IMG/VR virus record: IMGVR_UViG_3300044716_000676
Location: 1-25,453 of that record
Reading direction: 5' to 3' (one strand)
Length of the DNA stretch: 25,453 bases
Source of the DNA: a virus
The position numbers and the translations under genes were made by a program. The number at the start of each line of letters is the position of its first letter. The first letter of the stretch is position 1. The notes below the pieces were generated by a model that was not told the DNA's origin, did not search any database, and saw only the letters and a list, made by a program, of their open reading frames with translations. Below are positions 2-22,429 of the stretch, piece by piece.

Positions 2-541
2 AGTACACCAACTAGCACTCCTACATCAACACCCACTAATACTCCAACAAGTACTCCAACCAGTACTCCTACATCAACACCAACTAGCACTCCAACTAGC
101 ACTCCAACCGATACTCCAACAAGTACACCAACTAGCACTCCAACCGATACTCCAACCAGCACTCCAACCAGCACTCCTACATCAACACCCACTAATACTC
201 CAACAAGTACTCCAACTTCAACTCCTACTTCAACACCAACTGACACTCCTACAAGTACACCAACCAGTACACCAACTTCAACACCTACCGATACGCCAAC
301 CAGTACTCCTACTTCAACACCAACCTCAACACCAACGAGTACACCAACTTCAACACCAACAAGTACACCAACAAGTACACCAACAAGTACACCAACAAGT
401 ACACCAACTTCAACACCTACCGATACACCAACCAGTACTCCTACCAGTACACCGACTACCACTCCAACAACAACTCCAACCAGTACTCCAACAACAACTC
501 CAACCAGTACTCCAACAAGCACTCCAACAGATACACCTACT
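2..541 (+). repeat. 12-bp tandem repeat (45 in-frame units) coding X-T-P-T
   Basis: Forty-five consecutive 12-bp units stay in perfect 12-bp phase, with no indel that I can see. Each unit is one codon (mostly AGT, AGC or TCA; sometimes GAT, GAC, AAT, ACC or ACA) followed by ACN CCN ACN. Third positions vary between units while the peptide is kept, so the array is conserved at protein level. It continues beyond the left edge. Because the unit is a multiple of three, copy-number change would alter stalk length without breaking the frame. Confidence 0.97.
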
Positions 542-1666
542 AATCAAAAAATAGCTTTTTCACCTGGGTATATAGAATTTAGTGAAGAAGTTGGTTTGCC
601 TCTTCACGATCCACCCAAGTTTTATTATAAAAAAAGAATTACAGAGTTTTGGGATTGGTCAAATACTAGAAGAGTATGGTTTTGGGAAGCAAAAATTGAT
701 TTGAGTGGTACTATAGATTCTGTAGTCACTGATGTATATGGAAATGCATTAATAAATACGACAGGAAATGGAATATACGAGGAGCAATGGTATGGTGGAC
801 CGGGTACTTGGAACAAAAAAGCTAACTGCAATGTTGCTGGAACATATACTGAAAGTGGTAATGGTTGTTTAAATGGTCAATTGACTTATACTATTACAAA
901 TAATGTAGTAGGAGATAATCAAGGATCTGTTTTTTATCCAACTTGGAATCAAACTGTAGATACTCGAAGCACAGCATCATGTCCTACCGAGTGGCCTAAT
1001 CCGGTTCCTCATTATGAAGTATCTTATGGCAATGGTTGGGCAATAAACATGGGGATGATGAGGAGTATATATAACTTTGGAGGGTTTTCTTATCCAAAAT
1101 ATACTGGTAATATGTGGAGTTCCACTTTTACGCAAAAAACAAACACATCAATTAAAGAAACTAGAATTCCAGCTGTTTATTATATCGATGGATACGGTAG
1201 ACAATATTTTGACGGATCTGGAACTGCTTATCTCTTAACCGAACTTGTCGATGAGATTCCTTTGATATGGGAAACAAATTGGTCGCCTGATCCATCAGAA
1301 ATATGTTTGGGACAAGAATTTACTCAAACAAAAAATACATTAAACAGTTCTACGTGGACTCATGTTGCAAATAGACAGGCAATAGGAACTAAAGCTGATT
1401 CTTTAGGATGTACAGATCCGTGTGCATCGAATTTTAACCCAAATGCAACGTGTGATAATGGATCTTGTGTAAATATCAGCGAAGGCTGTACAAATGAGTG
1501 TTCATCCAATTACAACCCATCGGCATGTAGAGATGATGGATCTTGTAATTACGATTACGGAAATTGTCCTTGGGCTTTTGGATGTACTGATTATTGTTCA
1601 TCAAATTACGACCCAAATGCATTTTTAGATGATGGATCTTGTTTATATGACAATGCTAATTGTTAA
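2..1666 (+). CDS. Thr/Ser/Pro-repeat stalk protein with C-terminal Cys repeats (5'-partial)
   Basis: The frame is open from the left edge to the TAA at 1664-1666, giving 554 residues in the window; the true start lies upstream. A TTG at 596 is inside the frame and is not a start. Residues 1-180 are 45 uninterrupted tetrapeptides X-T-P-T (X is Ser 34 times, Asp 6, Thr 3, Asn 2), an extended mucin-like stalk. Residues about 181-467 form a Trp/Tyr/Gly-rich domain that I do not recognise. The C-terminus carries three 21-residue Cys motifs beginning GCT and ending GSC, a motif familiar from secreted Bacteroidota proteins and some phage proteins. The layout suggests a surface-exposed stalked binding protein such as a fibre or adhesin. 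The role is inferred from architecture and neighbouring virion genes. The 3' end overlaps convergent gene B by 11 nt. Confidence 0.85.
   Translation, partial: STPTSTPTSTPTNTPTSTPTSTPTSTPTSTPTSTPTDTPTSTPTSTPTDTPTSTPTSTPTSTPTNTPTSTPTSTPTSTPTDTPTSTPTSTPTSTPTDTPTSTPTSTPTSTPTSTPTSTPTSTPTSTPTSTPTSTPTSTPTDTPTSTPTSTPTTTPTTTPTSTPTTTPTSTPTSTPTDTPTNQKIAFSPGYIEFSEEVGLPLHDPPKFYYKKRITEFWDWSNTRRVWFWEAKIDLSGTIDSVVTDVYGNALINTTGNGIYEEQWYGGPGTWNKKANCNVAGTYTESGNGCLNGQLTYTITNNVVGDNQGSVFYPTWNQTVDTRSTASCPTEWPNPVPHYEVSYGNGWAINMGMMRSIYNFGGFSYPKYTGNMWSSTFTQKTNTSIKETRIPAVYYIDGYGRQYFDGSGTAYLLTELVDEIPLIWETNWSPDPSEICLGQEFTQTKNTLNSSTWTHVANRQAIGTKADSLGCTDPCASNFNPNATCDNGSCVNISEGCTNECSSNYNPSACRDDGSCNYDYGNCPWAFGCTDYCSSNYDPNAFLDDGSCLYDNANC
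1406..1642 (+). repeat. Three Cys-rich GCTD...DDGSC protein repeats
   Basis: Three 21-residue motifs start at 1406, 1484 and 1580 (63 nt each). The consensus is GCT-(D/N)-x-C-(A/S)-S-N-(F/Y)-(N/D)-P-x-A, followed by D-(N/D)-G-S-C. Copies 1 and 2 have four cysteines; copy 3 lacks the third and has three. The unit resembles the GCTDPxAxNYxPxAxxDDGSC repeats of Bacteroidota surface proteins, but with Cys at the sixth position. Linkers are 5 and 11 residues. Confidence 0.85.
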
Positions 1667-5622: not shown

Positions 5623-8600
5623 TTATTCTCTAGTTGAATCGAACCAATTTATTTTATATAAATCGGTGTGAGCAGGAGTAATCTTCTTAATATTGCTTCT
5701 TATAGAATCTTCTATTAATTTTTTAACACTATCGTCTGCTTTTAAATTATGGATATTAATATTATAATATTTGCTCTTACTTGTTGGTAATTGCATTTGA
5801 AACCAATGTTTTATTTCTTCCACATAGTTTCTTTCTCCTATTGGAATATTCCACTTTAATGGACCTTTATCTATAGATAAATCGGATGCAAAATATATTT
5901 GTGAGATTTCTCCCTGTGTTAAAGATTTATTGTACATTAAAATTTGACCAATATCTCCAATTAGTTTATATGCATCCTCAACCTGAATTAAATCATTTAA
6001 TGTAGTATTTTTTATGTTTGATGCACCTACCAATAAGGATGATTTATAATCGTATTGTATTTGATATTTTGCTTTATCGAATTTTTCATCAGCTACTAAA
6101 ATAGTATCTATGTAATATTTTGCAGTACCATTTGTTGAATCAAAATTAAAAACAAAGTTATGCCAGCCCGGTGGAAGATCTTTAACATCATATGTCAATT
6201 TCAATAATCTTCCTTCTTTTCCATTTGCTGTTGCAATTTTAAATTTCCAACTTAAATTTTTATCTAATGATCCAAATTTTCTTAAAAATTGATAACTGCT
6301 AAAATCACCTAATGCTTTGAAATTATGGTTTTCTTTTACTGTTGCTAAATCTACTGTTAATAATCCATATAAACTTAATCTAGAAACTAATGCTCCTTCG
6401 GAATTTATTAGGTATGCTATTTTATCAGAATCATCAATTAATATAGCCAAGTCTTCGGTTTTATCAGATGTTTCCACGCATACTTTGCTTATTTTAGGTG
6501 TCTTGATAAAGTTTAAAAATCTAAACTGACCATTATATTCAAAACAATCTTCATCTATCAAAGCATTTTTTCCTATGCTTTTTGTAAATTCAAACCTGTC
6601 TTCGGTTATATTAAATTTTGTTATTTTATCTTTTTGATGAACCAACCATAAATTATTTTTAGCATCACAGCTTATTTGTTGCATTGGTCCTAGATTTGCA
6701 TATATCTGTTGGTCTTTATATAAATTTCCACCTATAACTTCCCATAAACTATTTTGATTATCGATACATGAAGTATTACCATAAGAGTATTTTAGATTAT
6801 CATCTAAATCTATTTCAATTCTTTTGTATTCTTTTGTGAGTATATTAGTTGATAATAAATTTCCTTCGGAATTAAGTTTTACTACTTTTTTATCTTTTAC
6901 ACAATATAGGTATAAATTTTCTTGAGAATCTATTTCTAGTTGATCTATATATGTTATATCGCTTAATTCTGTTACATCAACAGTTTTTTCAATTTTTCCT
7001 TCTATATTATATTTTCTTAGTATTCTATTATATGAATCTACCACCCAATAGCCGAAATCTATCAATCTTTGTATTATATTATTTTGACTATTTGGTTTAT
7101 ATGGAATAGATATATTATCTATATGAGAAAGTTTAAAATTTAAATTGAAAATATTTCCTGATGTGGAATCAACAACAGTAAAAAGAGGCGATGTTAAGGA
7201 AGATTCATTTATAAATCCAAATCCACTATCATAATAATTTCCTATTATTTGATCTCCGTTTATATTACCCCAATCTTCAACTCTTAACCATAAGGAAAGT
7301 GTTAAATGATTTTTTTCTAATAATACATTTTTAGCAGGAAATACTATATGGTTTTTTCCATTTAAATTTAAATATTCTCCTTTAAAATTTGAATCTTCGT
7401 TTCCAACTATGAAACCATCGTTTTTATATGGTGTATTGTCTATTAATGGTGAACTGGTAAAATTTGATATGTCCAATACTTTAGATCCTAGTGGATTGTA
7501 AAAATCTGAACTCAAATATGTCAAAAATGTTTTAGAATTTTCTTGTCCAGAACGGAAGTATATATACTGCCCACCGGGTTCAAAAAATAAAGACGATGGT
7601 TGATCCCAAACTTCAAAATCAACATCTGGATTTAACTTTTCGTTGTATAATAAATCAGTTGCGGCTAATGCTTTATCGGTTGTATAATAAGCGGAATTGA
7701 AATATCTATCCATCCACTTCTTTTGACCCATTGTATTTCCCGATAACCATGTACACAACCATGTTCCATCTAATCTAGGCATAGACGGAGGTTGTGGAAC
7801 ATTTGGCGTTAGCTCCTCGTATGATATCTGTCTAGTATATATTCTATCTGACACATAAGGCAATTCTCCATAATATGCCCCATCTTCGATCAATCCTGCA
7901 TCTTGTACCGATATTCTTTGAGTTGTTGGTGGAAAGTAAAAAACTGTGTTTCTATCAGTTTCAAATTTTTTTAAATATGTATTTGTAGTAAACCCTAAAT
8001 ATATATTTTCCAATCCATTTTCTTGATTGGTTCCAGAGAATATATTATTATATACTCTTCTAATCGATGGATAATCACCAATATAATCAACACCTCTAGA
8101 ATAATTGTATTCCGGTGTTTGATAATTTTTTAATCCATGTATTTGTAAATCATAATCTACCGTTTCGGTGATATCGTCAAATTTTGGATTTTTATATGGA
8201 AAAAATGATAAAAAATTTTGTTTATAATTTTCTTTTAAACTTTCTTCGGTTGGTATTAAATCTTTTTGGGATAATAATGGACTAGATTCATATATACAAA
8301 AATAACTATTTTTAATGCTATCGGATAACAAATTATTTCTTTTATATGATATAAAGTTTAATATATTAGAGTTTCCTAAAGAAGAATTTAAATTATATGA
8401 TACATTAGTAAGTGACAATATTCTATTTGAATTTATAGTTACTGCTTTTGTATAGTTACTATCATATGAAAATAATACTATGTTATCTTCACCCAAAAAA
8501 TAATTGAATTTTTGTGTATTTGAAGGCGGTGATATTCTAGATGAAAAAAATAAATTATTAGAATTATCGTAAGTTAAAACATTTCCGTTATATGATTCGA

Positions 8601-9003
8601 TTGAAATTGTATCATCATCGAATATTATTTTCATGGTATCTAAATATGAAAAGCTATTATTGTATGATTTATATAATATGTTTTTATTTTGATATGTTGA
8701 AAGTGTTAAAACAAAAGAATCTGTTGTTTTTAAAGGAGTTTCTATCTTAGAAAGATTTGTTAAAATCTCCGGAGAATTTTTGTCTTCAAACATATCTTGT
8801 CCTGATAAAAAATTAGTCAAAACAATTCCGGTTTTTTTATTTATTTTTATATCATTTGGATCTTTTAAAAATTCATATATATTTGATTTAAATCCATTAT
8901 TAAAAACAAAATATGTTTTTTTCATATTGATTTTATTACCCATTAAATTAAAATTAATGGGATACCAATATATATCTGATATTTTTTTTGAAGATAGTTC
9001 CAT
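5623..9003 (-). CDS. Large virion protein with LamG lectin fold interrupted by a beta-propeller
   Basis: 1126 residues and no signal peptide. Residues 1-500 are beta-rich and unrecognised. Residues about 505-625 look like the first half of a LamG/concanavalin-type domain (GEYLNLNGKNHIVFPA, LTLSLWLRVEDW). Residues about 640-900 then carry NHL-like blades (GYWVVDSYNRILRKYN; DSQENLYLYCVKDKKVVKLN; DAKNNLWLVHQKDKITKFN). The LamG pattern resumes at about 940-1040 (PPGWHNFVFNFDSTNGTAKYYID; GDIGQILMYNKSLTQGEI). The last 85 residues are a charged helical tail, perhaps for assembly. It is the last gene of the minus-strand virion run, 9 nt after gene H. The role as a carbohydrate-binding tail or baseplate component is inferred from fold and context; I cannot assign a T4 homologue. 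Confidence 0.78.
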   Translation of the reverse strand: MELSSKKISDIYWYPINFNLMGNKINMKKTYFVFNNGFKSNIYEFLKDPNDIKINKKTGIVLTNFLSGQDMFEDKNSPEILTNLSKIETPLKTTDSFVLTLSTYQNKNILYKSYNNSFSYLDTMKIIFDDDTISIESYNGNVLTYDNSNNLFFSSRISPPSNTQKFNYFLGEDNIVLFSYDSNYTKAVTINSNRILSLTNVSYNLNSSLGNSNILNFISYKRNNLLSDSIKNSYFCIYESSPLLSQKDLIPTEESLKENYKQNFLSFFPYKNPKFDDITETVDYDLQIHGLKNYQTPEYNYSRGVDYIGDYPSIRRVYNNIFSGTNQENGLENIYLGFTTNTYLKKFETDRNTVFYFPPTTQRISVQDAGLIEDGAYYGELPYVSDRIYTRQISYEELTPNVPQPPSMPRLDGTWLCTWLSGNTMGQKKWMDRYFNSAYYTTDKALAATDLLYNEKLNPDVDFEVWDQPSSLFFEPGGQYIYFRSGQENSKTFLTYLSSDFYNPLGSKVLDISNFTSSPLIDNTPYKNDGFIVGNEDSNFKGEYLNLNGKNHIVFPAKNVLLEKNHLTLSLWLRVEDWGNINGDQIIGNYYDSGFGFINESSLTSPLFTVVDSTSGNIFNLNFKLSHIDNISIPYKPNSQNNIIQRLIDFGYWVVDSYNRILRKYNIEGKIEKTVDVTELSDITYIDQLEIDSQENLYLYCVKDKKVVKLNSEGNLLSTNILTKEYKRIEIDLDDNLKYSYGNTSCIDNQNSLWEVIGGNLYKDQQIYANLGPMQQISCDAKNNLWLVHQKDKITKFNITEDRFEFTKSIGKNALIDEDCFEYNGQFRFLNFIKTPKISKVCVETSDKTEDLAILIDDSDKIAYLINSEGALVSRLSLYGLLTVDLATVKENHNFKALGDFSSYQFLRKFGSLDKNLSWKFKIATANGKEGRLLKLTYDVKDLPPGWHNFVFNFDSTNGTAKYYIDTILVADEKFDKAKYQIQYDYKSSLLVGASNIKNTTLNDLIQVEDAYKLIGDIGQILMYNKSLTQGEISQIYFASDLSIDKGPLKWNIPIGERNYVEEIKHWFQMQLPTSKSKYYNINIHNLKADDSVKKLIEDSIRSNIKKITPAHTDLYKINWFDSTRE

Positions 9004-9731: not shown

Positions 9732-10406
9732 CTATTTACAATCAGGATAATTTGGATTATTTTCAACTTCTTTTTGTTTATCGACAAAATCTATATTATA
9801 TGGATTTTCCACATTTTGATTTTGAAATGGTTTGAGTATATTATATGCTCTTCTAGATTTAGAAGAAAGGTCAACAATTGGTTCTATTACTGGTTTATTA
9901 TTCCAATTAACCACAACCGGAATGTAATAATTTGGATTTACCGATTCAAAAACATATAATATGTCGTTATTTACACCGAACATTCTTGTATATAGCAATT
10001 GTACTCTATCAAAAAATGCATTTGAATTTGTACCATCCATTATTGGAGCATTTAAATTTAATTTAAATTCAATTTTAGTAGGATTCGTTACTCCTAACTG
10101 ATAAACATTTGCACTAATTCCAAAAACTTGTGATGTGGCGGTTGATGTAATATAAAAAGTCTTATTGCATTTATAATTTCTTGGATCACCTATTTCATTT
10201 GGAAATGGTAGTGTTTCGGTTGTTGTTGATTTATAAAATAAATTTTGTGTCTTAATTTCATCATCAAATATATATTCAATTTTATATATTTTTTTAGAAA
10301 CAATTAATGACGATGGATTTATAGTTAATGATAATGGTGCATAATTACTTATCGTAGTGTTATGCAAAGAGGTTGTTAAATTTATTGTTTTTTCAAAATT
10401 TAGCAT
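9732..10406 (-). CDS. Hypothetical structural protein (224 aa)
   Basis: This is an unrecognised beta-rich protein. Residues 1-60 (MLNFEKTINLTT...; IYKIEYIFDDEIKTQNLFY) resemble an Ig/PKD-like strand pattern. The middle (about 80-165) continues in strands with VQLLYTRMFGVNNDILYVFE. The C-terminus is polar (KQKEVENNPNYPDCK). Its first 11 codons and their upstream leader are duplicated upstream of gene I (12446-12505), which makes the start at 10406 credible and shows that this gene lay next to the adhesin when the duplication occurred. TAAGTATT sits 6 nt before the ATG. The stop TAG is 2 nt from the next gene. A fibre-attachment or tail role is inferred from context. Confidence 0.72.
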   Translation of the reverse strand: MLNFEKTINLTTSLHNTTISNYAPLSLTINPSSLIVSKKIYKIEYIFDDEIKTQNLFYKSTTTETLPFPNEIGDPRNYKCNKTFYITSTATSQVFGISANVYQLGVTNPTKIEFKLNLNAPIMDGTNSNAFFDRVQLLYTRMFGVNNDILYVFESVNPNYYIPVVVNWNNKPVIEPIVDLSSKSRRAYNILKPFQNQNVENPYNIDFVDKQKEVENNPNYPDCK

Positions 10407-10447: not shown

Positions 10448-12421
10448 TTATGTTAATGTTCTTGATACGGTTGTTTGATAACCACAATAACTATACGTAT
10501 TACCACTTCGACCACAAAAACATCCACCAAAGCATGGATCGCCATTAAATCCAGGTGGACAACCATCGGTAGGAGTATTGTCAGTACAAGTACAGTTAAC
10601 AATTCCGTTACAACCTGTTGATGTTGTTGTAACAATAATAACAGATATAGAAGTAGAACAGGTTGCATCGTTTATAGTAATTGTCATGATTTTAGTTCCT
10701 GCTGTTGATGTGGTGACAGTAAATGCTTGTGTTCCATATCCTTTGTATAAAACAAAATTTCCGGTTAAACTTGCTCCATTTATTTCACCTGTTGTAACTC
10801 CTGTTATAGTATATGATATATTTCCATCTCCTAATAATGATGTATCCAATCCAAAAGTCACAGTTGATCCATTTATAGTTTTAGTTAAACTATATAAGGT
10901 TGGATAAACTCTCCAATCTTTATTTTTTGCAATAATCCAATTACATGAACATGTTCCTGTATTATTATCTACATAAATGCTCCATTCTGGTGTTATGCTT
11001 GGTGGTTTTTGTGGAAGTTGATTAAATATGTCATTTAAATTTGTTGCTGACATATTGTTGTTTTTTATTACTATTGTTCTTGTTGTATTTTGTGTTAAAG
11101 AAATATTAGATAATCCACTTAAATTTCCACCTATATTATTAGATTCTAAATTTAATGTTTCCAATGATACACAAGAAGACACATTCAAACTACTTAAATT
11201 ATTAGCATAAAAATTGAGTGTTTTTAAACTAGAACAATTAGTCAAATTCAATGATACTACAGATTTTTTGATGCATGTCATTGTTTGTAACAATCTACAA
11301 TTTGATAAATCTATAGCACCACCAATATTGTTTGGTAAATTTACTATTATAGTAGTTAATGCCTGTCTAGGTTCTATATAAAGATCATTTGATTGTGTAG
11401 TAATTGTTACACCAGAACCATCCGATGGGGTAGTTGTTATAGAAGGCTGTGAACTCCATCCAGACCATAATACTGGCAATGTACCAGATCCGCTACTAGT
11501 ACATTGATAACCTCTCTCATCATTATTGATTTGAATTGTTGTAAAATCTGAACCATCTATCCAACATCCCCCTTGTCCACCATTACCAAAGCTGGTAGTT
11601 GAACCTTCTATACCATCTTCACCATCTTGTCCCCATGCTCCTCCGTCTCCACCGCTTCCGGTAAATATAGAAGCTCCATATATTACACCAGCTATACCCA
11701 AAGTTGGAACCGAACCATAACCTTGTCCGTTTCCTCCCTTTCCACCAGTGTATGTTGTACATTCTCTATATTTGGTATTGCATGTACCAACAGTTGAACC
11801 ATTACAAGCAGAAGCATTGGTATAATATTGACAAGAAGAACCACAAGCTGCTCCAACTGTACAGTCATTTGGAGTTGAGCAATAATTTCTTCCTTGACAA
11901 TTGAGTATGCAACATTTACCACAAAAAGAGGCTCCTCCACAATTTGTAGATGATGTTAATACTTCTGTTTTATATGCTCCACCACCACCGCCGCCTCCAC
12001 CGCCTCCACCATATATATTTCCATTATTGGTTATAATAAGGTTTCTTCTAGTGTATATAGCAGTTCCTCCTTTTCCACCATCAAAACCAGCAGTACTACC
12101 GCCTCCTATTGCACCAACTCCAGCTGCTCCTAATATTGAACCATTGTTAATTATTATAACCTGATCATATGATCTAAATGTACTTGCACTATCGGCTGGA
12201 ATAGTTATGGCTGGTGTTAATGGATTATTGGAATATACATTCACCCCTGAATTAATTGTGATTATACCTCTTAATTTTTTCCCACCGTTTCTATTCCAAT
12301 TAAATCTACTAGCTGCTCTAGTACTTATATATGTCCATAAATTTAAATTTTGTTGATCAGTAGTTATTGTATCAACTACTGTTAACCAACTACCATAATA
12401 TCCTAGTCCAAGAGATGCCAT
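10448..12421 (-). CDS. Polyglycine adhesin with Cys loop and leucine-rich repeats
   Basis: 657 residues. The N-terminus MASLGLGYYGSW is shared with paralogue J. Residues about 85-300 form a glycine-rich module: INNGSILGAAG, then YG(11) at 137-148, a loop of about 77 residues with 12 cysteines (161-221), GGKGGNGQGYG, GGDGGAWGQDG, and GGCWIDGSD with a Cys pair at 286/307. Such glycine motifs build the polyglycine-II sandwich of gp38-type phage adhesins (Salmonella phage S16), which form the receptor-binding tip. Residues about 366-442 are leucine-rich repeats (LNLTNCSSLKTLNFYANNL), about 508-586 an Ig/Calx-beta-like domain, and 603-646 a second Cys-rich tail with eight cysteines. It has the clearest Shine-Dalgarno in the window. 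It is probably a host-receptor binding protein; the receptor is unknown. Confidence 0.83.
   Translation of the reverse strand: MASLGLGYYGSWLTVVDTITTDQQNLNLWTYISTRAASRFNWNRNGGKKLRGIITINSGVNVYSNNPLTPAITIPADSASTFRSYDQVIIINNGSILGAAGVGAIGGGSTAGFDGGKGGTAIYTRRNLIITNNGNIYGGGGGGGGGGGAYKTEVLTSSTNCGGASFCGKCCILNCQGRNYCSTPNDCTVGAACGSSCQYYTNASACNGSTVGTCNTKYRECTTYTGGKGGNGQGYGSVPTLGIAGVIYGASIFTGSGGDGGAWGQDGEDGIEGSTTSFGNGGQGGCWIDGSDFTTIQINNDERGYQCTSSGSGTLPVLWSGWSSQPSITTTPSDGSGVTITTQSNDLYIEPRQALTTIIVNLPNNIGGAIDLSNCRLLQTMTCIKKSVVSLNLTNCSSLKTLNFYANNLSSLNVSSCVSLETLNLESNNIGGNLSGLSNISLTQNTTRTIVIKNNNMSATNLNDIFNQLPQKPPSITPEWSIYVDNNTGTCSCNWIIAKNKDWRVYPTLYSLTKTINGSTVTFGLDTSLLGDGNISYTITGVTTGEINGASLTGNFVLYKGYGTQAFTVTTSTAGTKIMTITINDATCSTSISVIIVTTTSTGCNGIVNCTCTDNTPTDGCPPGFNGDPCFGGCFCGRSGNTYSYCGYQTTVSRTLT
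12385..12421 (-). repeat. Conserved 37-bp 5' end shared by adhesins (copy in I)
   Basis: The first 37 nt of gene I match those of gene J (14604-14640) at 36 of 37 positions, coding MASLGLGYY(G/S)SW. The proteins diverge soon after. This is a plausible recombination anchor or a strongly conserved attachment segment. Confidence 0.9.
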
Positions 12422-12477
12422 TATGTTTCACCTCTTAAAATATTAGTTAAATTTATCGTTTTTTCAAAATTTAGCAT
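12421..12477 (-). pseudogene. 18-codon fragment of the 224-aa gene, coupled to gene I
   Basis: This mini-ORF reads MLNFEKTINLTNILRGET. Its first 11 codons copy the start of the 224-residue gene at 9732-10406, and its own leader is copied too. It ends in TAA that shares one base with the ATG of gene I (TAATG), so if it is translated it would couple to I. The Shine-Dalgarno of I lies inside it. It is best read as the scar of a tandem duplication; it could also act as a leader peptide. Confidence 0.7.
12429..12436 (-). promoter_or_regulatory. Strong Shine-Dalgarno of gene I
   Basis: AAGAGGTG lies 7 nt before the ATG at 12421. It is the only convincing Shine-Dalgarno I see at a start in this window; the other genes have A/T-rich leaders or TAAGTATT. 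Confidence 0.7.
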
Positions 12478-12505
12478 TTATTAATACTTAATAATAAGTG
12501 TTAAA
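12446..12505 (-). repeat. Duplicated leader plus 5' coding block, copy 2
   Basis: This 60-bp block nearly matches 10375-10435 but is followed by unrelated sequence after the 11th codon. It carries the same TAAGTATT and ACTTA-TTAT-TAAGT inverted repeat (12486-12499). It marks the junction between adhesins J and I. Confidence 0.92.
12483..12490 (-). promoter_or_regulatory. TAAGTATT element before the 18-codon fragment
   Basis: On the minus strand TAAGTATT sits 5 nt before the ATG at 12477. It was carried along with the duplicated leader block. Confidence 0.4.
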
Positions 12506-12516
12506 AGTTCTATAAA

Positions 12517-14640
12517 TTATCCAACTCTTCCTGCTACCGATGATCCGGATTGAGCATTAATTACATATGTTGCATCCGATAATAATTTTAAATAATATCC
12601 AGCAAGTCCAAAATTACCTCCTGTAACAGTTGCACTATAATTTCCTCCATTCGATCCATCTGTACCAAATGCTCCACCATTACCGCCAATTGTTGTGCTT
12701 CCACCAGTAGTTCCAGAACCAGAAAGGTTACCAGAACCTTGTCCTCTTCCACCATTTCCACCGTTGTAATCATCTCCTGTAATGGTACAGTTGCAAGTTT
12801 GTTGATAATGCCAAGTACATCTCCGATCACTCCAGCATTGCTTACCATCGTGTTCCCCTCTTCGGCAATAATTGTTGGCTCCTGTACCGGCAGTACACGT
12901 CCCTGTTTGACAGGATCCTCCAGTGGACCAACCTGCCCAACAGTCAGGTGCGCTGTTGCATTTGTCTTTATCGCAAGAATCTAAGCCCACACCATAACAT
13001 CCACCCCAGCTACAAGAAGTACTTTTAGTGCTATATCCACCGCCACCGCCACCTCCACCTCCACCGCCTTTTATGTTTCCATAGTTATTTAATGTTATGG
13101 GTGTTCCTGATGATATAGCAGTTCCACCATCTGAACCATTTGCGCCATTACCTGTTGTACCACTTCCACCCGATCCACCCGCACCATATATATTTCCGTA
13201 ATTTATTAGTGTTACTTTACTTCCTGTTGGCAATGCAGGTATTGTTAAAGCAGGATTTGATTCTGATGTAGAACCAACAGTTACACCGGAATTAACTGTT
13301 ATTATTAAATTCACCTTTTTAACTCCTTTCCAACCATTGGAGGTTAAAAATGTGTTTACACTGTTATAGTTATTGGTATCGGATGAAATTGTAATATTAA
13401 CAATATCATTTATAACTACACTAGCAGAAAGATTCTCTACAGTAGTTAATACTAATGTCTCAGTATCTTCGACTAAAGTATCAGTTGCTATATTTAATAT
13501 TAATGATGCCGTATTATTATTTATAGTAAAATTACCAAGTGAATTAGCACCATTTATATCTTGAGATGTTACACCAGAAATTGAATATGGTATTAATGTA
13601 CCATTTGCTACATTCGTTGTATTTAATGTGAATGTAACAGTAGAACCTTCATCTACATTTGATACACTTCTAGTTAAATTGTATGTCGGTACAAGAACCG
13701 GAGGTTTCGGTTTCGGTATTTGCACAACTTGATTGGACGAAGTACAAGCACCACCCAATTCAATATTTAATGATTTTATTGTTAAATATTCCGATCCATT
13801 AACCCAACATCCCCCTGTTCCTGCTATACCAGCATTTTTAGCATTACCATTAGTTCCAGCCTGACCAGCTTGACCCCATGTTCCCCCATTTCCTCCCTTT
13901 CCCCCGCCACCTATTCCGTTAGCCCCGATTCCATTAGATTGACCATAACCTTGACCATCTCCCCCATCTCCACCTTTGTTATTTATCCATGTTTTGGTTT
14001 TACATTGAACATATACCCCATTCAATCCTGTTGTGGGTGGATCACAGCAAGGTGGATTACAAAATCCTGTGCAACTATTACTAGAATAATAACAATGAAA
14101 ACCTCTGGTGTTGAACCATTGAGTTCCACATAAATTAACCGGACAGTCATCACAATTGCTTGCATCACAACATTGACAAACTACACTTGATCCGACTGTA
14201 TATGTTTCTATTCCGCCACCACCGCCACCACCGCCACCACCGCCACCATATATGTATCCATTATTTGTTAATATCACTCTGTTTCTAGTATATAAACCAG
14301 TTCCTCCGTTTATACCATCTTCTCCTTCGGTGGGTGTTTGATCTCCTTCTCCACCTGTTCCCTTTGCTCCACCCGCTCCTGCTATTATTCCATTATTTAT
14401 CAAATAAATTTCGTCATAAGAACGAAAAGATGCGGGAACACTTAATGCGGGTATCAATGGATTCGTTGAATAAACAGTATATCCCGCTGGTATAGTTATA
14501 AATGCTCTTAATTTTTTACTAGTATTGTTCCATCCACTATTAGATGTTATAAAATTATATAGATTGACATTGGCTTGAGTAGTTAGATTTAAAACAACAT
14601 TATACCAACTACTATAATATCCTAGTCCAAGAGATGCCAT
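12517..14640 (-). CDS. Adhesin with two polyglycine sandwich modules
   Basis: 707 residues, paralogous to gene I over the N-terminus. Module 1 (about 75-300) has G(12) at 132-143, a 79-residue loop with 12 cysteines (155-213), GGDGGDGQGYG, GGNGGTWGQAG, and GGCWVNGSE with Cys 278/299 spaced 21 apart as in I. Residues about 319-412 are an Ig/Calx-beta-like domain related to that of I. Module 2 (about 440-707) repeats the plan: LINYGNIYGAGG, G(11) at 525-535, a 91-residue loop with 12 cysteines (543-618), GGNGGRGQGSG, GGNGGAFGTDG. By analogy with gp38-type adhesins the glycine motifs form a polyglycine-II core and the loops contact the receptor. The start is 4 nt after the tail-fibre stop. A GGAG 18 nt upstream is too distant to be a convincing ribosome site. 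Confidence 0.85.
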   Translation of the reverse strand: MASLGLGYYSSWYNVVLNLTTQANVNLYNFITSNSGWNNTSKKLRAFITIPAGYTVYSTNPLIPALSVPASFRSYDEIYLINNGIIAGAGGAKGTGGEGDQTPTEGEDGINGGTGLYTRNRVILTNNGYIYGGGGGGGGGGGGIETYTVGSSVVCQCCDASNCDDCPVNLCGTQWFNTRGFHCYYSSNSCTGFCNPPCCDPPTTGLNGVYVQCKTKTWINNKGGDGGDGQGYGQSNGIGANGIGGGGKGGNGGTWGQAGQAGTNGNAKNAGIAGTGGCWVNGSEYLTIKSLNIELGGACTSSNQVVQIPKPKPPVLVPTYNLTRSVSNVDEGSTVTFTLNTTNVANGTLIPYSISGVTSQDINGANSLGNFTINNNTASLILNIATDTLVEDTETLVLTTVENLSASVVINDIVNITISSDTNNYNSVNTFLTSNGWKGVKKVNLIITVNSGVTVGSTSESNPALTIPALPTGSKVTLINYGNIYGAGGSGGSGTTGNGANGSDGGTAISSGTPITLNNYGNIKGGGGGGGGGGGYSTKSTSCSWGGCYGVGLDSCDKDKCNSAPDCWAGWSTGGSCQTGTCTAGTGANNYCRRGEHDGKQCWSDRRCTWHYQQTCNCTITGDDYNGGNGGRGQGSGNLSGSGTTGGSTTIGGNGGAFGTDGSNGGNYSATVTGGNFGLAGYYLKLLSDATYVINAQSGSSVAGRVG
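14604..14640 (-). repeat. Conserved 37-bp 5' end shared by adhesins (copy in J)
   Basis: Partner of 12385-12421; the copies differ at one base. The near-identity extends through the ATG and first codons but not into the upstream sequence. Confidence 0.9.
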
Positions 14641-14644
14641 ATCA

Positions 14645-16726
14645 TTATGATAATAAATCTCCTACAAGATACCAAGATGTACCAGTCCAATATGCACTTG
14701 CCGCTGAATTTGTAAATGCTAATTTTTTAAAATCGTTATTTGGTGTTGATAATATAGTAGGAAGGGGGGAACCTGCTGCTGCAAATTGTACAGTGGCAGC
14801 ACCTACTCTTATTACCGAAACTTGTGTTCCTGCTTTTAGACCAGTTGGTAATTGGATATTTATAGTAGTTGTTGCATGATCTGCCAAAATTGTTTTATCG
14901 TGATCATCTTGTGTTATCTGATAAGTTGCTGTTTTTGTTATAGGTGCATTTGGATCATTTTTTATTGTTCCGTTAACTACAAAAGAACCTGTTGTAGACA
15001 ATGTACCAAATACTGTAACGGCGTTAGCATCCGCTCTTAATTTTTCAACATTGTTTGCGAATAGTGATACTATACCATTTCCTGCTCCACCAGTTCCTAT
15101 TGGACTAAATAAACCAGTATCACCATCAGATCCAAAAGCATAACCATTGGTTGATGAATCAACATTAGATGGTGAACCTTGATTTGATCTAAATCCAGTA
15201 GCCGAAACTCTTCCATTTACTGTTAATTTTTCGGATGGTGTAGTAATTCCAATACCAACATTTCCAGAAGGAGCTATTCGCATCGCCTCTTGTTCTGTTG
15301 ATACTAAAAATTGTATATCCGCATTAGCATGATTTGTTGCCAGTTTTAAATCTAAATTATCATGATTCCAACTTAAATAAGAACCATAAGGATTTGTTGG
15401 TCCTCCCATTACAACACCAGCATAATTTGAATTTGGGGATAATAATGATATATAACAATTAGCATTATTTTCAAATACTCCAACACTATTAGCCTGTGCT
15501 GTTACCGTACCCGCTGAACCATTTTTTACGTGTAATAATCCTTCTGGTGATGTTTCCCCAATTCCAACCTTTCCATCACACAATATACGCATCTTTTCTG
15601 TTGCATTAGTTCTAAAAATTATTGGATTACAATTTTGTTGATCTATTATAAATGAACCACCAAATGATCTAATCCAATTATCAGCTGCTCCATTTCTAAT
15701 AAATTCTAAAGCATTTACTCCTGTGCCAAGAGCTATTCTAACATCTCCAGTAGTCGTTCCATCAGTAACATGTAATTTTTGAGATGGTGACATTGTTCCT
15801 ATTCCAACAAAACCATTATCATTAAAAACTATATCGTCACCATTTGCATCTATAAAATGAGCAATTGGTTCTGATCCGGATTGAGTAACTTTTAATGCAG
15901 GACCAGTTCCGGTATTTTCAATTGTCATTGCGGATGTAACTTGTACTTTGGTATCCAAATATGTATATGCTCCCAATACAGTTAAATCTTTTGCGATTGT
16001 TACACTGCCACATACATTTAAATTTTTTGCAATACCAACACCACCATCAACTACCAATGCACCTGTTGTACAAGATGTGCTTTCTGTGTCATTGTTTAAA
16101 TCTAATCGCCCACAAATATTAAGATTTTTTGCAATACCAACACCACCATCAACTACCAATGCGCCAGTTGTACAAGAAGTGCTTTCTTCTGTTCCATTTA
16201 TATTAACAGTGCTAGTGTCAGCAGTACTACCAATTTCTATATTTGTAGCATTTCCACCGAAATGAATAGTTGTGGTTGGTGATGTGTTTAAAAGATAAAA
16301 AGTCGATGTAGAAGCTGTTAAATCTCCACCGTCTATTTCCACATCACCCGTAACATTTAAATTTCCATTCAAATTTGTATTTCCCAATACATCCAAAACA
16401 TAAGTAGGGGTTATAGAATTTGTATTTATACCAACTGTACCGTGCATTATGTTTTTACCAAATGCAGTAGAAAGAGGAGTATTAAAACTAAATGCAGCTA
16501 AACCAATTTCTCCACCAATAGTACGAATACCTGTTTTTGATGAATAAAAATATCCCGCATATGCACTTGCTGGTGCTACTGCGCACAATGCGCCTTGTAA
16601 TGAAAAATCTCCAAGAAACGGTTGATCTGGACTTGCTATCGGATCATGTGAAGCATCCGGATTGGTAGGATTTCCGTATGTGTGATGGTTTTTTCTGTGA
16701 TATTTCGAGTGAAATCTATTGCTCAT
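14645..16726 (-). CDS. Phage tail fibre protein (VGIGT-repeat type)
   Basis: 693 residues. The His/Pro-rich N-terminus (HRKNHHTYG; NPDASHDPIASPDQPFLGDF) resembles the attachment end of marine phage fibres. Shaft repeats follow: TVGINTNSITPTYVLDV (97-113), FVGIGTMSPSQKLHV (306-320), KVGIGETSPEGLLHV (386-400) and NVGIGITTPSEKLTV (489-503). Two copies of STSCTTGALVVDGGVGIAKN sit 34 residues apart, at 182 and 216. These TGALVV-GGVGI and VGIG-T-SP motifs are classic for trimeric beta-structured phage tail fibres. The C-terminus (TATYQITQDDHDKTIL...AYWTGTSWYLVG) is a common fibre end; no endosialidase chaperone domain is present. It precedes the adhesins J and I, which could sit at its tip as gp38 does on gp37. 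TAAGTATT lies 7 nt before the ATG. Confidence 0.9.
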   Translation of the reverse strand: MSNRFHSKYHRKNHHTYGNPTNPDASHDPIASPDQPFLGDFSLQGALCAVAPASAYAGYFYSSKTGIRTIGGEIGLAAFSFNTPLSTAFGKNIMHGTVGINTNSITPTYVLDVLGNTNLNGNLNVTGDVEIDGGDLTASTSTFYLLNTSPTTTIHFGGNATNIEIGSTADTSTVNINGTEESTSCTTGALVVDGGVGIAKNLNICGRLDLNNDTESTSCTTGALVVDGGVGIAKNLNVCGSVTIAKDLTVLGAYTYLDTKVQVTSAMTIENTGTGPALKVTQSGSEPIAHFIDANGDDIVFNDNGFVGIGTMSPSQKLHVTDGTTTGDVRIALGTGVNALEFIRNGAADNWIRSFGGSFIIDQQNCNPIIFRTNATEKMRILCDGKVGIGETSPEGLLHVKNGSAGTVTAQANSVGVFENNANCYISLLSPNSNYAGVVMGGPTNPYGSYLSWNHDNLDLKLATNHANADIQFLVSTEQEAMRIAPSGNVGIGITTPSEKLTVNGRVSATGFRSNQGSPSNVDSSTNGYAFGSDGDTGLFSPIGTGGAGNGIVSLFANNVEKLRADANAVTVFGTLSTTGSFVVNGTIKNDPNAPITKTATYQITQDDHDKTILADHATTTINIQLPTGLKAGTQVSVIRVGAATVQFAAAGSPLPTILSTPNNDFKKLAFTNSAASAYWTGTSWYLVGDLLS
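16022..16085 (-). repeat. 64-bp direct repeat in tail fibre, copy 1
   Basis: Near-identical to 16124-16187, offset 102 bp (34 codons), encoding TSCTTGALVVDGGVGIAKN. Only a few bases differ, so the duplication is recent or homogenised. Confidence 0.9.
16124..16187 (-). repeat. 64-bp direct repeat in tail fibre, copy 2
   Basis: Second copy of the in-frame 34-codon shaft repeat unit; see 16022-16085. Confidence 0.9.
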
Positions 16727-16733
16727 ATTTTTA

Positions 16734-16741
16734 AATACTTA
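16734..16741 (-). promoter_or_regulatory. TAAGTATT element before tail fibre start
   Basis: On the minus strand TAAGTATT sits 7 nt before the ATG at 16726. Its TAA is the stop codon of gene L, the same arrangement as at the H/G junction. Confidence 0.45.
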
Positions 16742-19700
16742 TGTTAATGGTGATGTATATTCATTACAACAATTTGATGTTGCATCTTTCCAAAGTTTTG
16801 TCGGTGCATAATTAACAGGAAACGTGTTCATTAATTCTGCATATGTTATCGGATTTATGTTACAAAGTCTTATTAACGGTAGAGACAAGTCATAACACGA
16901 CATTGCTTTCCAAGACCAACAGAAATCTCCTCCACATTTTGATTTTTCTCCGTCTAAATTTGATGATGAACTATCAGAAAATGAAACGTCCAAATTTTCC
17001 CTCAAACTTATTTGAGAATCGTGTAATTTTTTCAATTCTCTATTGACTACATCGGGAATATAAAATTCATTTACTCCAATTTTTAATTTTTCATTTTCTA
17101 CATCTGAACCAAATTTAACATTATCTTCTTTTAGTATTGGTATTAATGAAAAATATGTTGCTGATCCTCTGGCTGTTTGTTCTGATACTAAAACAAATTT
17201 TCCATTTAATGAATTTCTAAATGTTTTTAAATTTTGAGCGGTTCTATTTAATGCCAAATTATAGTTTATATCTGTTGCAAATTCTTCTTTCTTTAATAAT
17301 ATTTGATCCAAAGACCAGTATTTAGAATCTAATCCATCTCCTATTTTAAACAAGTCAACAAAGTCTTGGAATTTTAAAATTGATTTGTTGGTCGAGACAT
17401 ACAATTCTCTATTTGAAGAATGTTTACACGATGTAAATTTCAATCCATTTATATTTGGTAAATTAAATGTTGTTAAAAATTCACCAACAGAAGAGTATTT
17501 AAAAACATTTCCGGTAGTTGTTATGTATAAAAATTCTCCATTTTCATCAAATTCCATTTTAACTATTTCAGATTCTCCGATCTGAGCAACATCAAATGTG
17601 GAATATACGGATTTTGCTAACTCATCGAATATATGAACTTTTAAATTTTTAGTTACTGCATATATTAATCCACTTTCATGGACTGTAAAATTCAATATTT
17701 GATCATTTTTTAAAACATCATCATAGTATGTATGTATCCAAGATAAAGATCCACTATATTGTTTTATGCAATTGTTGTTATAATCTAAAACAAATACATT
17801 ATCATTCCATAGGAATATTTCAGATGGGAAATCGAACCTGCTATTATCATTTAGTCCACCCAAGGTTCCAACAGTTAAAACCAATCCAAATAAAGGATTT
17901 TGTAAATCACTAAAATCAAAATCAAATCTGTATATTTTATGCCTAATTGAATCTGCCACATATATGGATGTTTCATCTTCGTTTACGGTTATTGATTGTG
18001 GATTAAAAAACAAATCATCCATATCAGATGCTTTTAAAAATTTTATTTCTTTACAATTTTTATCTTTTTCAAAAAGTCTGAATCTTTTATCATCTAACAC
18101 GTATATGTATTTTCCTATATGTATATCTTTTATGTCTGTGAAATATGATGTTCCCTCTGATATTGCATAATTAGGAGTCTCATAAAACTCAGAACCATAG
18201 CTTGGGGTATACCATCTTATACCATCCGATCTATTATCTTGATTTGAACCCATCCATCCATAGTAATATGACGGAGCATTACTATTAATTGTTTGAATAT
18301 TGTTTTTTAAATAATTTAAATTTTCATCAATTCTGGTTAAACATGTATTGAATATATCCGCATCACCAAATTCATTTGGTTGTATGGAAATATCATTTAA
18401 ACTATATGGCAATTCTAAATTTGCCTCACTTATAATTCTTATACTTTCTTTGTTATATTCATCCCAATTTTTTTTGACAACAAATGGTGTTTTTTCTGTG
18501 AATACTTTTTTAGAATTGTCCGAATATATCGCACTATATGTTATATAAAAAGTTCCTAATGTTTTATATGTATTATAAAAAGTTTCGTTTTTATTTTTTT
18601 CTTGTATATTTCCTTCTCCAAAATTTACAGCATATTTTATGATTGGATTTTTTGTATATTCCGGTGTATTAAATTCTACAAATACTTGATTTCCAGATAA
18701 AGTATAAGCAGTATTTAAAAATATTTCCGGTTGTGTTGATGTAGTATATGCCTGTAGAGTTTGCCAATTTGCTCTTTGTGGTATTGTTATGTTTTTAGTA
18801 TTCCAAAAATCTCCACCATTAGACAATCCTACTGTAGTAAACGTAGATTCTGGTATTTTTATATTTAAATTTGAACTCGCATTTAAATATAGAGTATTAA
18901 GTGTTGTATTTTTGACTCTAAGTGGTGACAAATCATCACCGGGTCTTATGGTAAACACCGTATATGTACCATCAACAGCTGGAATTTCTTTCTTTGCTAT
19001 CCATTTCGGTGCGGACAATATATATGTAATAGTAGATTGTTCAGATTGTATTTTTGCTGGAGTATTTAAAGGATTTGTATTGAACTTTTGTCTTACTATT
19101 ATACTTCTATTAACATCTAAATCAAAAGATGTCACGGTAGCACTAAAAGTATTAGTTATTCCATTATAGTCCATCAATTTTGGATTCTGGAAAAATAGTA
19201 AATTACTCGGTGTACTAGCATTATATGGTATTGATTCTGCTACTATATTATAACTTCTTGTAACTAATGAACCCCCTTCTAATGATTTATAATATAGTGG
19301 GGTATTTGATGGAAAATATTCATTAAATGCCGATAGATATAATTTAGTTCCAACCGAAGATAAAAATTCATCAGTATATTTTAATGTTAATGTATTAACA
19401 CCATCATTTGTTGTATCTAGTAATGTATCTCTACTTGATCCTTGTTGATAAACATATCTATCAAAATTTCCATTTGCTGAAACATAAAATACTTCTGTAT
19501 TAGATTTTTTATATTCGTATGCAGTAGTTCCAGCAGCTATTGTATTATAATTAGAAGGTGTTAATATCGATACTTGATCACTATTTTTCCATGCATATTG
19601 TGGATATGAAATAAATTTTAATTGTTTATCAAAAACACTACTATCTAAACTATAAATTGTTGCGTTTTGTTCGACCGTATGTGTAGTATTCCATCCCGCA

Positions 19701-22429
19701 ACAGTTGCACCTGATATTTTTAAATTTACATAATATCTCCAACTACCAGTGGCATTGAGATCAATTGTATTACCTGTTCCTGTTGTTACTGTTCCAGAAG
19801 CATTAGTTATAGTCCAAGTTAATGTTGGAGTATTTGTTAAAGTTGAAATAATATCAGGTTCAACTGTTAATGTATATTTTGCATTTGTATCATTCCTTCT
19901 GGTTAATACATATCCACCATTTCTTGTTTCTAATAATTTAACATTATTATTAGGAGATTGATATGTTATATAAAAATCAGCATTAAAAATATTGTCACTT
20001 GGAAAACTATTTAAATTTAAAATATAAGTACCTTTGTATTGTTCTAATGTATCAGAAGTAAACACATTTATTTCCATATTATTAGAAACGAATTTTTTAT
20101 CTGTTTTACTTGGTTTTATAAAAAATTGTAAAGTATCGACATTATTTGCCAGTTCATTATTAAATGCAGAATAATATCCTGTAGATTTTACATATTTTGC
20201 TGTTATTGGTGTAGTTTCATTGTATACATTATTATATTTCCATGTCCAATAGATAACATTGTTTGATGGTATATTGTATAGTCTATCTTTAAATGGTACA
20301 TATGCACTCAATGTTATTGTTCTTATTTCATTTTCATTATTTAAATTTACGGTCGGTGTTACTAATAATTTTTTATCATTATAAAAATCAAAATAAGTGT
20401 TATCTGTTGAAATAGAAACTATACTATCATATTTTTCGGAAGAAAGAGTTATTGTTGTTGTATTTGGACCATAACCAGATAATCTAACCGCCCAACTATT
20501 ACTGTTATATGGTATTTTTGTATTGGGTTGTATAAAATTGTTAGTCGGTATGTATGTGTTATTTTGTTTTTGTAAAGAAGTTATTTTTACCGTTGGGTTA
20601 ATTGGAAGATTCAACCTCCATTGTATATTAGAATTAATTAAATCAATAAAAGGAAATGTTGTTGAATTGTTTAAATTTTCAATACTCAAATCTATATAAT
20701 CATTACCTTCTTTTATAGTTTTAATTTCTAAATTATATTTTTGACTTTTATATAATCCTTTAATTGGTATTATTGATACCCTTGGTGCAGCATTAATTCC
20801 ACTATAAATATTATTTAAAATTGGTCTTATAGATAAATTTGTATAACCTTCTCTACTGTCGGGATAACTTACTTCTAATACTGTATTAGAACTTGCATTT
20901 AACCATGTAGGATTTTTTAAATCATATGATACTCTATTTGTGTTTGTTCCAACTTTCACTTGAATTTCATCCAATAATGATGTATCAAATAAAAAATCTG
21001 GTTTATACATTATTTGATCAAAAATACCGTATGTTTCTAAATCTAAATCAACTTTACCAAATTCATCTCTTAAATAAGATGATATTAAAACCGAACTAGT
21101 TGAAACCATATCGGAATGCATAAGTTCTCTATATGCAACCGATGTTAATGTAAACGATGAGCAATATTCATCTATTGGTGTTGTTATCTCCGGTGGAGAG
21201 ATTAATGATATTTCATACGAATAATAATGCGGAGGATATTTTGTTATATATGTTACTGTATTATGTCCAGATTTTGTTGATGGTATAGCCGAAACTAATG
21301 GTATATCTGTTCCATTTATTCTGAACGATGTAACGGTATCCTGTACTCGTTCATCTCCATTTATCATGTTTGCCGAATCAACAATATAAGAAACTTTAAA
21401 ACTCGTATCATAATTTCCGGTTATTATATTTCTACCGGATTTTTGTTTACAGTTATAACTTAATAAAGTAGAATTTAAATTTAAATTTGAGCTAAGTACA
21501 CAATTTTGAGTACTTTGTAATAGTAAATTTACATTTACGGCACTTTGAATAAAAAGAAAAGTTTGATCATTAGCAGTTTCGTTAATAAAATTTATAGGTA
21601 TAGATAGAGATGGATTACATCTAAAATCATCCGGATGATAATTCGTGAAAGATAAAGATTTTACATCCGTACGTGCTTGTAGGTCTATGTAATTTACTCC
21701 AAATTCAAAAAACGTTCTATCCTTTCTTATTCTTTTAAAATATGTATTATTCTCTAATACTGTAAAAAAATTACTTGGTTGATTTACTGTTGTATAATTT
21801 ATTATACTTTTTCCTACCACCGATTTTGTTGCTGATATACTATATAAAAAACTACAAGAATTGTTAATATCTGTTGGATAATCAATTATTGTTTTATTGT
21901 CTGATTTTATATAGTTATCATGTAATAAAGGACATCCATCGCGTCTTTCTGGTGTATCATCTTTAAAAAATATAGAATTTCTTTGTAATATACCAGCTTT
22001 TAATGTTATACTATATGAATTATTATTAATTTTAGATACCGATACTGGAGTTAATACTAATTGTTCCGGATAAAATAAGTATCCGTAATTTGTAAAATCC
22101 CCACTTTCCTCGACTCCTACTTTAAAAAAGTTTACAATATAACCAAAATCTATAGATTTTCTAGCTTCTAATGCATTGAATGTAAGTTTACCATTAGTTT
22201 GATAATCTATTGTCCATTCGCTTCTATTTAATGTTGCGTTAGTAGCTGTTACGTAAGAAGTGCCTTCTAATTTATATAACCATAGCAAAGGTTGTCTGGA
22301 ATAAAAGCATAAAAAATCACACGGCAATTTCGGTAAAGCTGCTGGTATTACGCTTGTTATTGGAGCAAAATCGTAACTTTCCTTTGGAAAATTTCCTATT
22401 TTTGTTATTGTAAATGCTGTATCGGCCAT
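16739..22429 (-). CDS. Giant virion protein with beta domains and C-terminal NHL-like propeller
   Basis: 1896 residues, and the largest gene here. The N-terminal 1200 residues are a long series of beta-rich stretches with Ig-like strand patterns (YTLTVEPDIISTLTNTPTLT; TLKYTDEFLSSVGTKLYLSA). A PKD-like domain lies at about 1240-1325 (IKYAVNFGEGN...YKTLGTFYITYSAIY). Residues about 1425-1685 contain NHL-like blades: KYIYVLDDKRFRLFEKD, ETSIYVADSIRHKIYRFD, NVFVLDYNNNCIKQYSG, EFLYITTTGNVFKYSS. The last 210 residues are helical/polar and include a Cys-rich end (CGGDFCWSWKAMSCYD; NCCNEY). There is no signal peptide. Size, repeats and location next to the fibre genes suggest a tail or baseplate spoke, but I cannot assign it to a known T4 gene product. 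Its start is preceded by a hairpin and not by a Shine-Dalgarno. Confidence 0.8.
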   Translation of the reverse strand: MADTAFTITKIGNFPKESYDFAPITSVIPAALPKLPCDFLCFYSRQPLLWLYKLEGTSYVTATNATLNRSEWTIDYQTNGKLTFNALEARKSIDFGYIVNFFKVGVEESGDFTNYGYLFYPEQLVLTPVSVSKINNNSYSITLKAGILQRNSIFFKDDTPERRDGCPLLHDNYIKSDNKTIIDYPTDINNSCSFLYSISATKSVVGKSIINYTTVNQPSNFFTVLENNTYFKRIRKDRTFFEFGVNYIDLQARTDVKSLSFTNYHPDDFRCNPSLSIPINFINETANDQTFLFIQSAVNVNLLLQSTQNCVLSSNLNLNSTLLSYNCKQKSGRNIITGNYDTSFKVSYIVDSANMINGDERVQDTVTSFRINGTDIPLVSAIPSTKSGHNTVTYITKYPPHYYSYEISLISPPEITTPIDEYCSSFTLTSVAYRELMHSDMVSTSSVLISSYLRDEFGKVDLDLETYGIFDQIMYKPDFLFDTSLLDEIQVKVGTNTNRVSYDLKNPTWLNASSNTVLEVSYPDSREGYTNLSIRPILNNIYSGINAAPRVSIIPIKGLYKSQKYNLEIKTIKEGNDYIDLSIENLNNSTTFPFIDLINSNIQWRLNLPINPTVKITSLQKQNNTYIPTNNFIQPNTKIPYNSNSWAVRLSGYGPNTTTITLSSEKYDSIVSISTDNTYFDFYNDKKLLVTPTVNLNNENEIRTITLSAYVPFKDRLYNIPSNNVIYWTWKYNNVYNETTPITAKYVKSTGYYSAFNNELANNVDTLQFFIKPSKTDKKFVSNNMEINVFTSDTLEQYKGTYILNLNSFPSDNIFNADFYITYQSPNNNVKLLETRNGGYVLTRRNDTNAKYTLTVEPDIISTLTNTPTLTWTITNASGTVTTGTGNTIDLNATGSWRYYVNLKISGATVAGWNTTHTVEQNATIYSLDSSVFDKQLKFISYPQYAWKNSDQVSILTPSNYNTIAAGTTAYEYKKSNTEVFYVSANGNFDRYVYQQGSSRDTLLDTTNDGVNTLTLKYTDEFLSSVGTKLYLSAFNEYFPSNTPLYYKSLEGGSLVTRSYNIVAESIPYNASTPSNLLFFQNPKLMDYNGITNTFSATVTSFDLDVNRSIIVRQKFNTNPLNTPAKIQSEQSTITYILSAPKWIAKKEIPAVDGTYTVFTIRPGDDLSPLRVKNTTLNTLYLNASSNLNIKIPESTFTTVGLSNGGDFWNTKNITIPQRANWQTLQAYTTSTQPEIFLNTAYTLSGNQVFVEFNTPEYTKNPIIKYAVNFGEGNIQEKNKNETFYNTYKTLGTFYITYSAIYSDNSKKVFTEKTPFVVKKNWDEYNKESIRIISEANLELPYSLNDISIQPNEFGDADIFNTCLTRIDENLNYLKNNIQTINSNAPSYYYGWMGSNQDNRSDGIRWYTPSYGSEFYETPNYAISEGTSYFTDIKDIHIGKYIYVLDDKRFRLFEKDKNCKEIKFLKASDMDDLFFNPQSITVNEDETSIYVADSIRHKIYRFDFDFSDLQNPLFGLVLTVGTLGGLNDNSRFDFPSEIFLWNDNVFVLDYNNNCIKQYSGSLSWIHTYYDDVLKNDQILNFTVHESGLIYAVTKNLKVHIFDELAKSVYSTFDVAQIGESEIVKMEFDENGEFLYITTTGNVFKYSSVGEFLTTFNLPNINGLKFTSCKHSSNRELYVSTNKSILKFQDFVDLFKIGDGLDSKYWSLDQILLKKEEFATDINYNLALNRTAQNLKTFRNSLNGKFVLVSEQTARGSATYFSLIPILKEDNVKFGSDVENEKLKIGVNEFYIPDVVNRELKKLHDSQISLRENLDVSFSDSSSSNLDGEKSKCGGDFCWSWKAMSCYDLSLPLIRLCNINPITYAELMNTFPVNYAPTKLWKDATSNCCNEYTSPLT

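Follow-up and report, generated by a model that had tools for sequence, protein, structure and literature searches.

The window analysed here, a 25,453-base virus record from IMG/VR, raises the question of what a stretch of leucine-rich repeats (LRRs) does within gene I, a candidate phage adhesin, and where that stretch came from. The ORF called in the initial annotation exists with exactly those boundaries and lies on the minus strand (Table 1), plus-strand coding of 10448-12421 being ruled out by stops throughout. It belongs to a minus-strand cluster (M, L, K, J, I, H, H0 and G) in which J starts 4 bases behind the tail-fibre gene K. The gene I product runs from a gp38-like polyglycine (PG) module through an LRR domain and an Ig-like domain to a Cys-rich tail, and so brings known building blocks together in a new arrangement.

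Table 1. Features of gene I and its neighbours in the window (residue numbers refer to the gene product)
Feature	Residues	Position	Strand	Evidence or remark
Gene I	1-657	10448..12421	-	ORF and 10 IMG/VR relatives; multi-module fibre-tip adhesin candidate
N-terminal anchor MASLGLGYYGSW		12386..12421	-	common to I and J; putative fibre attachment
gp38-like PG module	1-310	11492..12421	-	Pfam GP38 below cut-off, PHROG 10745/2056; Cys-rich insert at 150-225
LRR domain	345-507	10901..11389	-	profiles and predicted model; nested 21-residue class, C-terminal part helical
Core LRR repeats	378-440	11102..11290	-	repeat pattern and model strands; R1 378-398, R2 399-419, R3 420-440
Ig-like domain	508-600	10622..10900	-	type a allele; begins at the exchange boundary; identity drop and homology
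Cys-rich tail	601-657	10451..10621	-	unrelated longer domain in its place in L007-L009
Scar between J and I		12446..12513	-	repeats, over 68 bases, the I-H spacer (upstream region of H) with the opening codons of H
Gene J	1-707	12517..14640	-	paralogue, PG-Ig-PG; Pfam GP38
J, PG1		13711-14640	-
J, Ig		13405-13689	-
J, PG2		12520-13404	-
Gene K		14645..16726	-	PHROG 9942 and 18345 tail fiber, cyanophage tail-fibre matches; candidate fibre bearing the adhesins, upstream of J
Gene H		9732..10406	-	conserved downstream neighbour, behind I in 7/7 distinct loci inspected

Modules of gene I

LRR units had been proposed to lie between a gp38-like module and an Ig-like domain, and both profile searches and a predicted solenoid bear this out. 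Judged from these, the segment is a real LRR domain, if a short one of about three predicted repeats; its extent, put at residues 366-442 in the initial annotation, is longer (about 345-507) and takes in a helical C-terminal part. A regular expression picks out two complete nested repeats of 21 residues (378-398 and 399-419), and none of 20,000 shuffled LRR segments contained two, a result that is indicative only because the expression was composed after the sequence was seen. The repeats, LQTMTCIKKSVVSLNLTNCSS and LKTLNFYANNLSSLNVSSCVS, fit the consensus that Matsushima 2010 (PMC2946307) gives for nested IRREKO repeats, with two deviations, Cys instead of Asn at position 19 and Lys at the N position of R1, and are of the 21-residue LxxLx(L/C)xxNxLxxLDLxxx type with strands at 10/11-residue offsets. 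PHROG 7816 matches inside the LRR in all eight orthologues and Pfam LRR_4 in seven of the eight at E<=0.1, the window's own LRR_4 match (16 bits) falling below the Pfam cut-off of 27. A profile of seven orthologous LRR segments matched LGR4 (5.6e-5) and internalin-J (1.4e-4) in the PDB.

The AlphaFold model of full-length gene I is poor overall (pLDDT 49), with the LRR and Ig parts better, and most of the listed structures that it resembles are LRR proteins. The sub-model of residues 316-657 is a solenoid, with pLDDT mostly 73-89 over 366-485; its strands (65-69, 86-90 and 107-111 of the sub-model) are spaced by 21 residues, with short nested strands in between. The LRR claim had been made to depend on structure prediction giving a solenoid, and a solenoid with this spacing is what was predicted, so the claim stands. 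The best structural match to the sub-model is FSHR (Z 11.2, rmsd 3.3, 163 aligned), followed by TSHR (Z 10.9), LIC12234 (10.7), InlA (10.2), InlC (10.0) and InlB (9.8); nearly all top matches are LRR proteins, several of them LRR-Ig proteins. A structure search of BFVD gave two matches at E<=1e-3 with weak TM-scores (0.25 and 0.21), and an LRR-cap query gave nothing at E<=0.01. NCBIfam returned weak XopL-LRR similarity alone (10.5-11.9 bits, where the cut-off is 500), and a XopL identity was set aside as generic LRR similarity.

Gene I shares with the IRREKO proteins (Bacteroidota, Listeria internalin-J and others) the 21-residue pattern LxxLx(C/L)xxNxLxxLxLxxCxx in alternating 10/11-residue units and, in its model, strands on both faces, but it has only about three repeats and carries them within a phage adhesin. 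It also resembles the internalins InlA, InlB and InlC (Z 9.4-10.2), in which a capped LRR is followed directly by an Ig-like domain; LRR-Ig order and predicted fold are alike, sequence identity is 13-18% among the matches listed, and an internalin-type N-cap, surface anchor or secretion signal was not seen in gene I. The one viral IRREKO case in the available text of Matsushima 2010 (PMC2946307) is from an entomopoxvirus. Vibrio jumbo phage pir03 likewise has an annotated LRR surface-type protein (PMC7765460), but this is of the DUF285/BspA type, and an adhesin context is absent from the available part of its description. Among the openly licensed papers (CC0, CC BY, CC BY-SA) that literature searches listed, no title or abstract describes an LRR in a phage fibre.

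The gp38-like nature of the N-terminal PG module is likewise supported. Residues 1-310 match PHROG 10745 (6e-21) and PHROG 2056, 'tail fiber; host specificity' (4e-7), and the Pfam GP38 match (PF05268; E 1.5e-4, 22.1 bits) is under the curated gathering cut-off of 25, which the paralogue J exceeds (E 2.1e-9, 38 bits, in two stretches). A profile of the module found glycine-run proteins alone in the PDB (E>=0.037), solved gp38 not being among the matches, and AlphaFold gave no usable model of the region (pLDDT about 21-30). In PP01, gp38 forms a polyglycine-II (PGII) sandwich with hypervariable loops and attaches to gp37 through its N-terminus (PMC12892980). Like the T-even gp38 proteins (T2, S16, PP01), I has glycine-rich motifs alternating with variable segments, a position behind a fibre gene and Pfam GP38 similarity; unlike them, it is much longer, has a Cys-rich insert and added LRR, Ig and tail modules, and its gp38 fold is putative.

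The domain that follows the LRR had been described as Ig/Calx-beta. Its Ig-like character holds on the model (pLDDT about 70-85 in the full model, about 39-62 in the sub-model) and on homology to the Ig domain of J (39% over 69 residues). The Calx-beta label gains no support from Pfam, whose Calx-beta family had zero matches at E<=0.5 in the Ig domain of J or in that of either type of I; the name therefore goes back to a motif. The J segment spanning the Ig domain matches cyanophage baseplate proteins at about 40%.

Exchange among related viruses

Gene I occurs in ten IMG/VR contigs (L001-L010), all of which keep both PG and LRR (10/10). Scanning with the LRR alignment, with the complete alignment and with the N-terminal anchor returned 9, 10 and 10 loci and zero additional contigs, and a pattern scan for MASLGLGYYGSW found only the ten contigs already known to carry I. 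Because the I genes of L001, L002 and L003 are identical, as are those of L005 and L006, there are eight distinct I sequences including the window; the anchor is invariant in all eight and nearly identical in J. One relative, L010 (locus L021), is divergent, with an LRR identity of 64%; its I begins with GTG at 4924, overlapping the stop of a short J.

Two C-terminal types of I, type a (window) and type b (L007, L008 and L009), part at about residue 508-509. Amino-acid identity between the window and L007-L009 falls from 94-98% over 461-508 to 62-64% over 509-550, 58% over 551-600 and 13-19% over 601-657; the type a and type b Ig domains are 59% identical, and the type b end is a 130-residue domain confined to these three contigs. 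The LRR itself has two alleles at residues 384-386, IKK or NTQ. IKK is joined to type a in the window and to type b in L007, and NTQ to type a in L001/L004/L005 and to type b in L008/L009, so all four combinations are seen and the four-gamete test fails. Of 73 informative sites up to codon 508, 52 fail the same test against C-terminal type.

Gene J varies as well. A long J is found in the window, L005 and L006 and a short one (306-307 aa) in L001-L004 and L008-L010, while L007 lacks J. Behind the long J stands the scar of H, in place of which the short J runs directly into I, its stop overlapping the I start. The simplest account is that the long J formerly stood directly before H, or arrived with that flank by recombination. 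J had been said to carry a second polyglycine module instead of the LRR. The second module is present, but it sits after the Ig domain: I is PG-LRR-Ig-tail and J is PG-Ig-PG, and an alignment anchored on Ig sets the LRR against nothing upstream and the tail against PG2 downstream. As the two genes differ on both sides of Ig, the earlier wording is inexact. The locus is mosaic, with end pieces of I and the neighbouring gene J exchanged among related viruses. The swappable architecture proposed earlier thus survives as homologous exchange, but what is seen to move is the Ig domain of I together with its C-terminus, and J as a whole, the LRR being retained throughout.

In seven close sequences with low pS (divergent L010 excluded), pN/pS is highest in I at LRR residues 366-440 (0.49), against 0.11-0.34 in six other regions. 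The PG module is conserved across orthologues (0.11-0.30), its Cys-rich segment 151-225 varying moderately (0.30) and below the LRR value; the loops of T-even gp38 are hypervariable, whereas the PG loops of I seem not to be, among these orthologues. In the LRR, variable sites are found at 14 of the 28 positions outside the core and at 2 of the 14 core positions (Fisher p 0.04), a marginal value and one expected for any buried core. These few sequences hint that the LRR surface is under change.

Origin of the LRR and the phage group

It had been suggested that the LRR could be horizontally acquired from host surface proteins, to be checked against bacterial and phage sequences; the searches made, limited in reach, turned up no such relative. 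In genome_contigs (84,980 species), a pattern-limited scan with the LRR alignment confirmed 0 of 199 pattern matches and one with whole I 0 of 42, the bacterial LRR scan consisting of two short peptide patterns that diverged LRRs would escape. Plasmids gave zero relatives of the LRR at E<=1, and isolated phages had no match to whole I at 1e-3 or to the LRR at E<=10. Given these limits, the absence weighs little. A generic nested-LRR query against phages matched 12 records, 9 labelled Listeria phage and 3 unverified faecal scaffolds. Two of these scaffolds, labelled 'Bacteriophage sp.', are probably mislabelled: in L051 (MT836352.1), a two-component system and genes for long surface proteins mark the sequence as bacterial DNA, while L052 (MT836314.1) looks like bacterial or mobile-element DNA.

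We give a nearly even chance to the LRR being an ancient part of the phage lineage and not a recent gain. Its presence in all ten contigs, the divergent L010 included, would fit this, as would the failure of the genome_contigs and plasmid scans to find a bacterial relative, although the former would miss diverged LRRs. The synonymous diversity points the other way: pS is 0.08-0.12 over residues 311-508 against 0.18-0.21 over 1-310, and the lower value suggests a recent spread of the block. A bacterial origin is still plausible, since the IRREKO class is common among Bacteroidota surface proteins, as the initial annotation had noted of LRRs of this style and in agreement with Matsushima 2010 (PMC2946307).

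On a related contig of 114 kb, G007, there is a terminase match, and the gp23-type capsid protein encoded there shows 33-35% identity to T4-like cyanophages among the matches listed; these place the phage group as T4-like. With the first ATG of each ORF taken as its start, a Shine-Dalgarno-like 4-mer lies upstream of 12 of 101 G007 ORFs, against 11% at random positions; such sites precede 4 of 73 in Flavobacterium phage FCL-2 (random 19%) and 17 of 52 in cyanophage S-PM2 (random 20%). This sequence pattern would be consistent with a host that makes no use of Shine-Dalgarno sites, for example one of the Bacteroidota, among which the phage host possibly lies. Part of the same contig (L026, G007:40001-60000) holds a run of glycosyltransferase-like ORFs, as judged by their starts, and window ORFs E and F are also glycosyltransferase-like on inspection. 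ORF A (window 2-1666, plus strand) has a long STPTSTPT repeat, then GCTDPCASNFNPNATCDNGSC-type Cys repeats, a motif known from Bacteroidota and marine phage proteins.

Proposed role of the LRR-Ig pair

We favour, with some confidence, the view that I is a receptor-binding adhesin at the tail-fibre tip of a T4-like phage, with the LRR-Ig pair as a second surface and with recombined ends. I would sit at the tip of a fibre that is probably the K product, a location suggested by its gp38-like module and gene position, and the conserved anchor at its N-terminus, together with the beta region, would fasten it there. The PG module may fold as a gp38-like polyglycine-II sandwich from which Cys-rich loops project; the short nested LRR solenoid, presumably capped, would make an internalin-like pair with the Ig-like domain behind it and offer a second, protein-binding surface, and the C-terminal domain would be an exchangeable end piece. 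J would be a paralogous adhesin occupying the same slot. Diversity could arise by homologous recombination between conserved blocks (the anchor, the LRR/Ig border and the I-H spacer), with substitutions on the surface of the LRR as a further source. The LRR is a probable candidate for a protein-binding module; receptor binding by I and a partner for the LRR are roles that we infer. More tentatively, the fibre-tip LRR-Ig could be a second receptor head beside the gp38-like PG head, binding a host surface protein, with recombined LRR alleles and end domains shifting host range.

It is rather unlikely, we think, that LRR-Ig is a structural spacer or chaperone-like fibre element, with the host bound by the PG loops alone. 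LRR and Ig domains can act as rigid spacers, PG and LRR always co-occur across the contigs and the exchanged portion is the C-terminal piece, all as such a spacer would predict; against this, the LRR pN/pS exceeds that of every other region of I, with changes mostly off the core. That I is instead a secreted or displayed phage product and not a virion protein, serving for example in superinfection exclusion or host-surface modification, is improbable: members of this LRR class are in many cases extracellular proteins of bacteria (PMC2946307), but I shares its anchor with J, belongs to a cluster that follows immediately on a tail-fibre gene, contains a gp38-like module and has a start, MASLGLGYYGSW, that on inspection is unlike a signal peptide.

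If the LRR of this adhesin does bind a receptor, recognition by LRR solenoids, as practised by bacteria, plants and animals, would extend to tailed phages; if it does not, gene I would be an ordinary, if neat, case of a mosaic phage adhesin. The four natural combinations of LRR allele and C-terminus offer a ready test for the module that governs host range.

Other members of the cluster have features of their own. Genes L (16739-22429) and M (22466-25453), both on the minus strand, are very large and have NHL/Vgb-lyase propeller-like matches; L had zero relatives among isolated phages at E<=1e-3. Gene K has an internal duplication, ESTSCTTGALVVDGGVGIAKNLN occurring twice (16008-16085 and 16110-16187). 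Gene G (5623-9003, minus strand) has a weak pentraxin-like match near its C-terminus (E 0.0013, below the Pfam cut-off) and is possibly another carbohydrate-binding fibre part.
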